Source of the DNA: an uncultured Alphaproteobacteria bacterium
GTDB taxonomy: Bacteria; Pseudomonadota; Alphaproteobacteria; RF32; CAG-239
Direction of reading: 5' to 3'
Assembly (NCBI GenBank): GCA_944392295.1
Contig: CALXWE010000013.1
Location: forward strand, 1 to 32,335
DNA length: 32,335 nt
The notes under the pieces are model-generated. The model saw nothing but the letters and a program-made list of their open reading frames with translations, searched no databases and was not told the DNA's origin. Positions 27,668 to 31,840 of the stretch are shown one piece after another (position 1 is the first letter of the stretch; each line of letters begins with the position of its first letter). A program made the position numbers and the translations under genes.

Positions 27668-28453
27668 TTATTTATAAACAATTTGTTCTATTGAAGTAGC
27701 CAAACCGGTACTATCATCAATTGACACAACAATACCATAAACGGTACCATCGCCTTTAGCCGGTATCAAGCGTTCGGAAGGATATTTACGGCACAAACGA
27801 CGAATAGGTTCATCAACTTCAAAACCCAAGACCGAATTATAATCGCCGCACATTCCGACATCGGTAATATAGGCCGTACCATGAGGTAAAATTTTAGCAT
27901 CAGCCGTCGGCACATGGGTATGAGTACCGGCCACAACCGAAACTCTGCCATCCAGATAATAACCGAAAGCAATTTTTTCAGCCGTTGCCTCGGCATGAAT
28001 ATCCACCAAGATTGCCGAGACATTAGCATTTAGGCGATAAGTTTGTAAAAGTTTATCAATAGCCTTAGCCGGACAATCAAGAGCGTCCATAAACACGCGC
28101 CCCATAACCTGAGCCACCAACAACTTTTTGCCGTTAGCCAACTCTACTTCACAAAATCCACGACCTGCAGTACCTTCGGGAAAATTAAGCGGACGCACAA
28201 TTTTTTTACAATCTTCCAAAAACGGAATAATTTCGCGCTGATTCCACACATGATTACCCGTAACCACAGCATCAACACCGGCAGCAAAAAAATCGCGGCA
28301 AATACCCGGCGTAATACCAAAGCCGTGAGCGGCATTTTCGGCATTAACAACCACGGCATCGGGCTTATGTTCGCTTTTAATAAGCGGCATATTTTTCAGC
28401 ACGGCATCACGCCCTGAACGCCCGACGACATCGCCTAAATAAACTACTTTCAT
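27668..28453 (-). CDS. YmdB-type metallophosphoesterase (TIGR00282 family)
   Basis: The 261-residue protein has the TIGR00282/YmdB metal-site series: GDVVGRSGR near residue 6, VVNAENAAHGFG near 34, GNHVWNQ near 65, VDIHAEATAEK near 147 and AGTHTHVPTADAKI near 175. Bacillus YmdB is a di-iron phosphodiesterase active on 2',3'- and 3',5'-cAMP and linked to biofilm and motility decisions. In alphaproteobacteria the gene is common near zapA and 6S RNA. The second of two close ATGs (28453) is chosen because AGGA sits 6 nt upstream; the longer frame to 28495 has no support. Confidence 0.92.
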   Translation of the reverse strand: MKVVYLGDVVGRSGRDAVLKNMPLIKSEHKPDAVVVNAENAAHGFGITPGICRDFFAAGVDAVVTGNHVWNQREIIPFLEDCKKIVRPLNFPEGTAGRGFCEVELANGKKLLVAQVMGRVFMDALDCPAKAIDKLLQTYRLNANVSAILVDIHAEATAEKIAFGYYLDGRVSVVAGTHTHVPTADAKILPHGTAYITDVGMCGDYNSVLGFEVDEPIRRLCRKYPSERLIPAKGDGTVYGIVVSIDDSTGLATSIEQIVYK

Positions 28454-28555
28454 TTTCATTCCTTTGCTTAATAAATTAACTCGGAGTGTAAACAAGCAGT
28501 TTTAATTATGCAAGATAAATTTTATTTATAAAGCCATCAAAATCTTCACACACAA

Positions 28556-28753: not shown

Positions 28754-29137
28754 CTACAAACTTTCTATTTGATTTGCAAGCATTTTTATTTGCTCTGTGA
28801 CTTGTTTTAGGCTCTTTGCCAACTCATTATCCAAGCCCGTTACATCTGCCTCTTTTTCAACTACTTTTTCAACCACTTTCTCCACAACTTCGCCCGACTT
28901 AGACTGTGAATTTTGCGATAATTGTTCAATTTTTTTATTTGCCTCAAACAGATCATCGGCAACCAACAGCCCAACCATTGCCAAGAGCATGTTTTCATTA
29001 ATATGTCCGCCGCCGGCAGTTAAGAGTTTTGCTTTTTCATCCAGCATACGCGAAAGTTTAATGATACGAACTTCTTGTCCGTCATCACAAGCAATGCCAT
29101 ACTCACGAGAATTAATTGTTATCGTTACCTGAGCCAT
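28754..29137 (-). CDS. zapA: Cell division protein ZapA
   Basis: The 127-residue protein has a ZapA N-terminal domain: VTITINSREYGIACDDGQE, VRIIKLSRMLDEKA and the NENMLLAMVGLLVADDLFEANKKI helix. A C-terminal coiled coil follows. ZapA bundles FtsZ filaments and stabilises the division ring. Between the two parts is a triple V-V-E-K repeat (about 84-95) that probably extends the coiled coil. The gene overlaps the preceding coiled-coil gene by 26 bp and is followed by 6S RNA. The assignment rests on sequence pattern and on this conserved arrangement. Confidence 0.9.
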   Translation of the reverse strand: MAQVTITINSREYGIACDDGQEVRIIKLSRMLDEKAKLLTAGGGHINENMLLAMVGLLVADDLFEANKKIEQLSQNSQSKSGEVVEKVVEKVVEKEADVTGLDNELAKSLKQVTEQIKMLANQIESL

Positions 29138-30093: not shown

Positions 30094-30657
30094 ATGAAAC
30101 AACTTGCTGGATCAATCAGAATCGGTTGGGTTATTGAATACAAAGGCAAACCCTGGACCATCACTAAAGCACAACACATTAAACCCGGTAAAGGCGGAGC
30201 TTTTATGCAGGTTGAAATGAAAGCTGTTGAAGAAGGAACCAAAACCAACGAACGTTTCCGTACTGAAGATACCGTAGAAAAAATGATGGTAGAAGATAAA
30301 GACTGCCAATTTTTATTTGAAGACGGTAACGGCTTAACCTTTATGGAAAATGAAACCTTTGAACAATTCACCATGCCGGCTGATATTTTAGGCGATTCGC
30401 GTCCATTTTTGACCGATGGTATGCAAGTAATTATTTCACACATCAACGGTCGCCCGATTTCTGTTGAGCTACCTTTACAAGTAACCTGCACGGTAACCGA
30501 TACCGAACCGGTTGTTAAAGGACAAACCGCAGCGTCATCTTATAAACCGGCTATTTTAGATAACGGTGTTCGTATTATGGTACCTCCGTTCATCAACACC
30601 GGCGATAAAATTGTTGTCGGCACTTCTGAGGCAAACTACGTAGAAAGAGCAAAATAA
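30094..30657 (+). CDS. efp: Translation elongation factor P
   Basis: The 187-residue protein has the KOW-like N domain with the conserved modification loop HIKPGKGGAF, in which K33 is the residue that would be beta-lysylated. An OB domain follows (about 65-127), and then the C-terminal domain with the VRIMVPPFINTGDKIVV signature of EF-P. It relieves ribosome stalling at polyproline. GGAG lies 7 nt before the ATG. Its stop overlaps the next ATG by one base (TAATG), so the monophosphatase-like gene is co-translated. No epmA or epmB is in this window. Confidence 0.97.
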   Translation: MKQLAGSIRIGWVIEYKGKPWTITKAQHIKPGKGGAFMQVEMKAVEEGTKTNERFRTEDTVEKMMVEDKDCQFLFEDGNGLTFMENETFEQFTMPADILGDSRPFLTDGMQVIISHINGRPISVELPLQVTCTVTDTEPVVKGQTAASSYKPAILDNGVRIMVPPFINTGDKIVVGTSEANYVERAK

Positions 30658-31457
30658 TGGCTTACATAACTCCTTTACTAACGGCAATAGTTGAAACGGT
30701 AAAGAAATCGGCATCATCTCTTGACCGCGACTTTGCAGAGCTTGAACAACTGCAAAATTCCGTTCGCGGCAACAAGAACTTTGTTTTTAATTCATATTCA
30801 CGTATTGAAAATAATTTAAAGACCGAGTTAGCAAAAATCCGTCACGATTTACCGATATTTACTCCCAACGACAAAGTCGTCGGTTCATCATATTTTGCCG
30901 TAAGCCCCATTGAAGGGTTAATCAACTTCGCACACGGCAACCCTGATTTTGCGGTATCCGTAGCTTTAGTTGAAAATGACATTCCTGTATGTGCGGTAGT
31001 ATACAATCCAGCACGTGATGAAACCTTCTTTGCCGAAAAAGGTAAAGGAGCTTTCAAAGAAGGTTATCGCAATCACGAAAGATTACGCGTTTCATCAACC
31101 AAGGAACTTGAAAGCGCCTTAATTTCAAGTACGGTTGCCGATAAAGACAATCTGGCCGATAACATTAAGCTGCATTCAAACATTATTGCCAAGACCGGCA
31201 ATTTGCGAGTAAGCGGCTGCATTGCTCTTGATTTAGCCTATTTATCGGGTGGCAAGTTTGATGCTTCCGTAAGCTTAAACAACCACTTATGCAGCATCAT
31301 GGGCGGTATTTTACTGGTTAAAGAGGCCGGAGGTTCCATAAGAGCCGTTAAGCAAAAAGATAACCGGATTGAAAACTTAAGCGAAGTTTTCAAAAATGGA
31401 GATTTAATTGCCGTAAACTTTAATTTAAATCAAAAGATTTTTGAAATTTTTAAATAA
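30657..31457 (+). CDS. Inositol monophosphatase-fold protein lacking catalytic residues (SuhB-like)
   Basis: The 266-residue protein aligns with SuhB/IMPase over its length: VGSSYFAVSPIEGLINFAHG, then FAVSVALVENDIPVCAVVYNP and LRVSGCIALDLAYLSGGKFD, then IMGGILLVKEAGG. The metal-binding residues are gone. The usual D-P-x-D-G-T-x-N-F is S83-P-I-E86-G-L88-I-N-F, the W-D of the second motif is C212-S213, and the upstream E-E pair is absent. It is therefore expected to be a pseudoenzyme. The reading frame is intact, and it is coupled to efp by TAATG, so it is likely kept for a non-catalytic role. E. coli SuhB has such a role in rRNA transcription antitermination. Confidence 0.82.
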   Translation: MAYITPLLTAIVETVKKSASSLDRDFAELEQLQNSVRGNKNFVFNSYSRIENNLKTELAKIRHDLPIFTPNDKVVGSSYFAVSPIEGLINFAHGNPDFAVSVALVENDIPVCAVVYNPARDETFFAEKGKGAFKEGYRNHERLRVSSTKELESALISSTVADKDNLADNIKLHSNIIAKTGNLRVSGCIALDLAYLSGGKFDASVSLNNHLCSIMGGILLVKEAGGSIRAVKQKDNRIENLSEVFKNGDLIAVNFNLNQKIFEIFK

Positions 31458-31541: not shown

Positions 31542-31784
31542 ATGAAAAAAGGAATTCACCCTGATTATCACGAGATTACATATGTGATGACAGATGGAAC
31601 AGAATGCAAAGTAAACACCACCTGGGGCAAAGCCGGTGCTAAAATGAATTTGGAAATTGATCCGAAATCTCATCCGGCATGGACTGGTATTCATCGTATG
31701 GTAGATACCGGCGGTCAGGTTTCTAAGTTTAACAGCAAGTTTGCTGCATTCGGTATTAAAACAGATACTAGTGTTAATAAGTAA
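31542..31784 (+). CDS. rpmE: 50S ribosomal protein L31
   Basis: The 80-residue protein has the bL31 pattern: [18 protein letters not shown], then [17 protein letters not shown] and [11 protein letters not shown]. It lacks the C-x-x-C zinc pairs, as is usual for the alphaproteobacterial zinc-independent form. GGAG lies 7 nt before the ATG, and a consensus promoter and a terminator bracket it as a single-gene unit. Confidence 0.96.
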
Positions 31785-31808: not shown

Positions 31809-31840
31809 AATCCTGCTTTCAACTAAGCAGGATTTTTTTA
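31809..31840 (+). terminator. Terminator of rpmE
   Basis: Perfect 10-bp arms AATCCTGCTT and AAGCAGGATT enclose a six-base loop and run into seven T. Confidence 0.9.

Follow-up and report, generated by a model that had tools for sequence, protein, structure and literature searches.

A SuhB-type protein that has lost metal ligands is encoded directly behind efp in an uncultured alphaproteobacterium and its family

Locus and fold of the window protein

We analysed the contig CALXWE010000013.1 of an uncultured Alphaproteobacteria bacterium (assembly GCA_944392295.1), of which the whole stretch of 32,335 nucleotides is called the window and the genome G000. The window contains, directly behind efp, a gene for a protein of the SuhB/inositol monophosphatase (IMPase) type (Table 1), which is referred to as the window protein. 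It matched the PF00459 profile with 99.5 bits (cut-off 27, E 2.9e-28) over residues 6-254, that is, over the whole domain. The AlphaFold2 model gave a predicted local distance difference test score (pLDDT) of 92 and a predicted template modelling score (pTM) of 0.91. The best solved relatives were SuhB proteins, and the predicted fold agreed with that of the solved IMPase members. The IMPase fold is thus confidently predicted to be kept. The location directly behind efp, an RDFxExxLQ motif and the position in the tree assign the window protein to the efp-linked SuhB orthologues of Alphaproteobacteria.

The window protein shares its predicted fold over the entire chain with Escherichia coli SuhB (PDB 6ib7, 6ib8, 6tqn), which is both a Nus factor and an IMPase. 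The E. coli protein differs in that it keeps all ligands of the active site, is not encoded beside efp and is devoid of the RDFxExxLQ motif. The closest solved relative by sequence was Bartonella henselae SuhB (PDB 3luz, 3lv0; E 4.9e-33), but its catalytic residues are intact, the aligned 3luz sequence showing DPLDGT and WD. The efp-suhB pair and an RD[FY]xExxxLQ motif are common to many catalytic alphaproteobacterial SuhB orthologues.

Table 1. Features of the efp-suhB locus, in window coordinates
Feature	Coordinates	Strand	Basis or remark
efp, presumably encoding elongation factor P (EF-P), 187 aa; name from its sequence	30094..30657	+	used as query in locus searches
TAATG stop/start overlap, one base	30655..30659	+	efp stop TAA at 30655-30657; its last A is the first base of ATG
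SuhB/IMPase-fold pseudoenzyme (probable), 266 aa	30657..31457	+	ATG at 30657, stop ends at 31457; PF00459 match, AlphaFold2 model, SuhB structures as best solved relatives, ligand positions replaced
Residues 24-33, RDFAELEQLQ, N-terminal motif of live and dead alphaproteobacterial copies	30726..30755	+	conservation comparison
Residues 70-71 (P-N), replacing the E67-E68 metal ligand pair	30864..30869	+	alignment
Residues 83-91, SPIEGLINF, degenerate motif 1 (canonical DPxDGTTNF); N90 and F91 kept	30903..30929	+	alignment
Residues 134-145, KEGYRNHERLRV, family-signature hairpin	31056..31091	+	pattern counts
Residues 212-213 (C-S), replacing W-D of motif 2	31290..31295	+	alignment
rpmE-like gene, probable third gene of the transcript	31542..31784	+	open reading frame; name from sequence
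Terminator-like hairpin with T run, 3' of the rpmE-like gene	31809..31834	+	longest stem of the sites found, 10 pairs

Loss of the metal ligands in the window protein

The sequence of E. coli K-12 SuhB was used as a ruler for residue numbering, and E67, D84, D87 and D212, in this numbering, were taken to be the metal ligands of IMPase. None of the four was kept in the window protein. The alignment placed Y47 at D44, P70 at E67, N71 at E68, S83 at D84, E86 at D87, L88 at T89, C212 at W211 and S213 at D212. The combination of four ligands with the DPxDGT and WD motifs, by which a catalytic IMPase is recognised, is absent, and we infer from the alignment that the phosphatase activity has been lost. 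These residues include all those that the first-pass annotation had correctly named and numbered (S83, E86, L88 and C212-S213, with no E-E pair). It had also advised a search for a second, intact IMPase gene, and no other PF00459 match was detected in the window genome, which is 99% complete and 1.43 Mb in size.

Loss of the ligands across the family

In the order-wide search, PF00459-type matches reached E <= 0.001 in 148 of 153 genomes, although in two of these no match was more than weak. The family set consisted of 101 efp-linked orthologues from 16 genera, 89 in the first set and 12 added later. Ligands were lost in all 101. D84, D44, T89 and W211 were kept in none, E68 in one, E67 in 10, D212 in 20 and D87 in 68. 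The first-pass annotation had asked whether the loss is lineage-wide; this holds for ligand loss as such, but the absence of every ligand applies to the window protein and not to all its relatives. In the window's own genus, all three sequences are without any of the four ligands. The position of D84 is occupied by S (the commonest, 73/101), A, N, C or T, with no acidic residue fixed there, and ten different residues were found at T89. The replacing residues vary from genus to genus, which looks like the outcome of drift at a disused site.

In the tree, the 89 rows of the first family set formed one side of a branch with a support of 100 in the Shimodaira-Hasegawa-like approximate likelihood ratio test (SH-aLRT), next to G152 (89). 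The sister family was represented by G152 alone, in which the site is intact and suhB lies 7 bases behind efp.

A second PF00459 match was found in eight family genomes (G040, G043, G047, G049, G050, G051, G078 and G086; loci L032-L034 and L036-L040). These extra copies lie away from efp and scored 169-219 bits, whereas no efp-linked family copy exceeded 152 bits. Seven of the eight were aligned; all seven contained the four acidic ligands and formed one clade, and the intact copies were perhaps acquired separately. By our own count, in which split and missing contigs are unsorted, a single PF00459 match was present in 101 of the 146 family genomes with a match. Separately, a protein 65% identical (P0062) is labelled Elusimicrobiaceae in public records, pointing to a mis-binned contig or a transfer.

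The persistence of D87 and D212 in part of the family, together with the strong purifying selection described below, would suit a protein that remains catalytic through a changed metal site or a different chemistry. Such activity is highly improbable, given that D84 is never kept, that serine rather than a fixed acidic substitute prevails in its place, and that the window's genus has no ligand left.

Purifying selection on the ligand-less protein

The ratio of nonsynonymous to synonymous substitution rates (dN/dS) was calculated by the NG86 method for 34 partly non-independent pairs of relatives, of which 23 were usable (suhB dS 0.05-1.5). The median was 0.042 for the suhB-like gene and 0.010 for efp. 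On account of this low ratio the suhB-like protein is strongly constrained, although less so than EF-P. No internal stop was present among the matches listed from the genomes of the order. The first-pass annotation had described a fixed pseudoenzyme and had named random decay in relatives as the finding that would speak against it. The ligand loss in every family member, the low dN/dS and the single PF00459 match of the genome agree with a fixed pseudoenzyme under purifying selection, and the low ratio and the presence in 16 genera are not those of random decay. Conserved fold, loss of catalytic residues and purifying selection are also what pseudoenzymes in general have in common.

It might be argued that the gene is a decaying relic kept only by its position in an operon, since every ligand position differs among relatives. 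With the constraint and the intact frames just described, and with matches in nearly all genomes of the order, such a relic is very unlikely already and we give it almost no credence.

Pairing of efp and suhB in Alphaproteobacteria

The proximity to efp had been taken at first as a hint of a non-catalytic role. To place the locus in the class, 153 genomes were drawn and 138 loci outside the family were fetched; linkage was scored when efp was upstream on the same strand and suhB started -30 to 400 bases from its end. It was revealed that efp is directly upstream in 113 of the 138 loci and that all four acidic ligands are present in 125 of them. In a separate scan of 72 named non-family loci, the ligands were kept in all 72, and efp was within 300 bases upstream in 45. 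Ligands have been lost in 13 of the fetched loci, and four of these 13 are not behind efp. The efp-suhB pair is therefore ancestral in Alphaproteobacteria and mostly catalytic, and adjacency to efp is no sign of the dead form. It is an old arrangement that the pseudoenzyme inherited, and this part of the earlier argument does not stand.

The shared base reported earlier is present, the A at 30657 belonging to both the efp stop codon and the suhB-like start codon. The same -1 overlap at an ATG was found in 78 of the 89 first-set and in all 12 later orthologues, i.e., 90/101. From this one-base overlap only, we infer translational coupling of the two genes. In L064 (G003), TAATG is present, but the frame matched to efp stops about 50 bases short of the suhB-like ATG, which suggests a frameshift or an assembly error in that efp.

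The next gene in the window is rpmE-like and presumably encodes ribosomal protein bL31, as judged from its sequence; in 42 of the 101 family loci, an rpmE-like start pattern follows within 1 kb. The number of terminator-like sites was three, compared with a mean of 1.9 in shuffled sequences. Because a terminator-like hairpin stands after the rpmE-like gene, the gene order suggests that efp, suhB and rpmE may form one transcript in the window. On the opposite strand, two open reading frames at 28754-29137 (-) and 27668-28495 (-) resemble, judging from their sequences, ZapA and a YmdB-type phosphoesterase, respectively.

This organisation also fits a factor linked to translation, which would work with EF-P as a chaperone, regulator or modification partner and be made from the same mRNA at a fixed ratio. 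The frequent -1 overlap, the age of the pair in the class and the rpmE-like gene followed by the hairpin are all in its favour. Neighbours in an operon are not required to interact, however, and the four unlinked loci among the 13 show that the ligand-less protein occurs away from efp. Furthermore, the suhB of E. coli has no efp next to it, and yet, as reported in PMC4807359, it acts in ribosomal RNA (rRNA) synthesis. We regard a partner of EF-P as unlikely.

Probably recurrent loss outside the family

Besides the 13 ligand-losing loci, 8 further cases were revealed when the region behind efp was searched in 18 genomes whose matches were weak or unlinked or which had none. These 8 lie beside efp by way of their discovery and were excluded as evidence on linkage. 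In total, 21 of 146 classified non-family genomes, with 19 family labels, have lost ligands. The loss is clear in 19 of the 21 (17 of them without D84) and partial in two (L338 and L363, in which D84 and D87 are kept). Five genomes (G170, G182, G196, G209 and G293) were left unclassified, outside the 146. In these, no SuhB-like gene was detected beside efp, or efp itself had no match, and the best IMPase matches were weak or absent; their SuhB may have diverged strongly or been lost. The genomes with loss had a median size of 1.4 Mb, compared with 2.9 Mb for those without (21 vs 125; Mann-Whitney p 9e-6, uncorrected for kinship). An unusual case is L400 (G237), in which a dead SuhB-like domain behind efp lies in a 497-residue frame starting at about 2069, where 230-330 residues are usual; it seems from the frame to carry a long C-terminal extension.

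The number of losses was estimated on a tree of EF-P, a protein that does not have the long branches seen in the dead SuhB copies. A usable EF-P was available for 187 of 235 rows, and 16 of the 101 family rows were used. This tree needed 17 changes, at least 5 of which were forced by well-supported branches. A reduced set, from which four loss rows on long branches had been removed beforehand and in which only five family rows remained, comprised 21 loss rows and 71 random intact rows; it needed 11 changes, and a single clade of losses was rejected by the approximately unbiased (AU) test (p 0.000369). The SuhB sequences themselves gave lower numbers. Their FastTree phylogeny, in which the long dead branches join, required 3 losses (at least 2 forced), and a mixture-model tree without the active-site columns required 6 (at least 1 forced), with 16 loss rows including 10 of the 21 non-family ones. 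Since the SuhB trees need fewer losses than the EF-P tree, the recurrence may be overstated. Taken as a whole, the trees make several independent losses likely, with no fixed number.

Surfaces kept after loss of the ligands

Conservation was compared in three groups of sequences: 198 intact ones, the 101 of the family and 21 others that have lost ligands. The catalytic positions drop to 0-0.2 in both groups with loss, except for D87 (0.48 in the other ligand-losing sequences and 0.67 in the family). By contrast, N90 was kept at 1.00 in both groups, G131 at 0.95 and 1.00, and D25, E28, F91, R142, G199 and E223 each at 0.90 in the other ligand-losing sequences and 1.00 in the family. D25 and E28 belong to the RDFxExxLQ motif (R24-D25-F26-x-E28, L32-Q33) and are present in 99% of the intact sequences as well.

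The conserved residues bear on a further alternative, a ligand sensor whose pocket would bind a phosphate ester or nucleotide without cleavage and so regulate a partner. The fold is predicted to be kept, and G87, N90, F91, G217, E223, G225 and G226 are near-invariant in the family, which would suit such a sensor. The retained residues look structural, however, and the phosphate and metal positions drift (five residues at D84, ten at T89), unlike those of a conserved pocket. A sensor is thus distinctly unlikely.

A hairpin sets the family apart. The strict pattern KEG.RN.ER occurred in 57 of 89 family sequences and in none of 72 catalytic ones. A relaxed pattern for the signature around KEGxR[NS]HERLRV, which was fitted post hoc to the 89 sequences and also matches the 12 further ones, was found in all 101 family sequences and in none of the 198 intact and 21 other ligand-losing sequences. 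We considered the KEGxRNHERLRV hairpin as a pure innovation of the family and toned this down, as the intact outgroup G152 has a hairpin of the same length (VTGQRSDTRLRV). By comparison of the two sequences, the family hairpin is a reworking of one already present in G152.

A possible Nus-like role of the ligand-less protein

PMC6614801 reports that the phosphatase activity of E. coli SuhB is not needed to relieve a suhB mutant, that SuhB binds NusA and rRNA leader RNA and aids the joining of NusB/E to the complex, and that the second acidic repeat (AR2) of NusA is dispensable for the entry of SuhB into the complex. A Nus-like role fits best among the known ones because the ligand-less protein has the same fold, is selected and has no active site. 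By analogy with E. coli SuhB, we tentatively favour, at just short of an even chance, a non-catalytic scaffold, whose most plausible field of action would be the transcription of rRNA and the assembly of ribosomes. The ancestral alphaproteobacterial SuhB would have had two functions. The small-molecule phosphatase would have become dispensable, often in small genomes, and the active site would then have eroded. The RDFxExxLQ helix, N90-F91 and the hairpin end R142-x-R144-V145, surfaces that lie elsewhere on the protein, would have stayed fixed. The protein would be made in step with EF-P, and possibly bL31, from one transcript, and its partners may be NusA, RNA polymerase and the rRNA leader, as in E. 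coli.

The NusA of the window genome contains the C-terminal AR1/AR2 (TIGR01954 matched twice), both repeats are also present in G013, and the tails of 34 NusA proteins look alike. The co-occurrence of NusA and SuhB was tried as a test of the role and dropped as uninformative: the AR domains are present with and without an efp-linked SuhB and hence lend no support to it.

Several observations weigh against the Nus-like scaffold. AR domains are found in G170, G182 and G209, in which no SuhB was found beside efp. The main residues by which E. coli SuhB contacts AR2, K251 and L254, lack conservation both in the family and in its catalytic alphaproteobacterial relatives; the alignment places Q259 and F262 of the window protein there, although the register may be shifted, since 80% of the family has a lysine one column past the contact. 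In G168, which at 0.6 Mb is the smallest of the genomes that carry a dead copy, only a weak AR match was obtained. No small subunit (SSU) rRNA match was found in the 99% complete G000 assembly, and hence no boxA context. Finally, four genomes outside the family with a degenerate SuhB and an estimated completeness of 96-97% (G228, G237, G273 and G274; SuhB loci L396, L400, L389 and L374) contained no convincing NusA. In the first three, neither TIGR01953 nor a tailored alignment detected a NusA; G274 had no TIGR01953 match and only a partial one (E 0.0014) with the tailored alignment. Missing contigs or strong divergence are possible reasons. If NusA is truly gone, it cannot be the partner there, and because of these four genomes our confidence in the Nus-like scaffold moved from slightly above even to slightly below. 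In three of them (L389, L396 and L400), efp is directly upstream of the degenerate gene, and the EF-P partner gained a little from this check while staying unlikely. A loss or extreme divergence of NusA in these genomes would be remarkable in itself.

Implications for SuhB and its annotation

In the literature covered, with subscription journals mostly outside the search, no paper was found on SuhB or inositol monophosphatase as a pseudoenzyme, nor on a catalytically inactive SuhB with inositol. For inositol monophosphatase with efp or an elongation factor P operon, only seemingly unrelated papers were listed. The SuhB-type pseudoenzyme is probably a new and recurrent variant of a known family, although such a negative is weak evidence of novelty.

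SuhB has been ambiguous, an inositol phosphatase by its chemistry and an rRNA transcription factor by its genetics. Lineages that keep it without the active site would show which role is selected and mark the surfaces that the non-catalytic role needs; if true, they constitute a natural, repeated separation-of-function experiment. With less assurance than for the scaffold itself, we propose that alphaproteobacterial SuhB may be foremost a non-enzymatic factor of ribosome biogenesis or translation. Its catalytic site would have been discarded many times independently, with a preference for small genomes, with the RDFxExxLQ docking surface fixed and, in this family, the refashioned KEGxR[NS]HERLRV hairpin fixed as well. 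Public names exist for 7 of the 120 relatives listed, and since 6 of these 7 are called inositol monophosphatase, metabolic reconstructions of small-genome bacteria may assign an activity that, judging from the replaced ligands, has very probably been lost.
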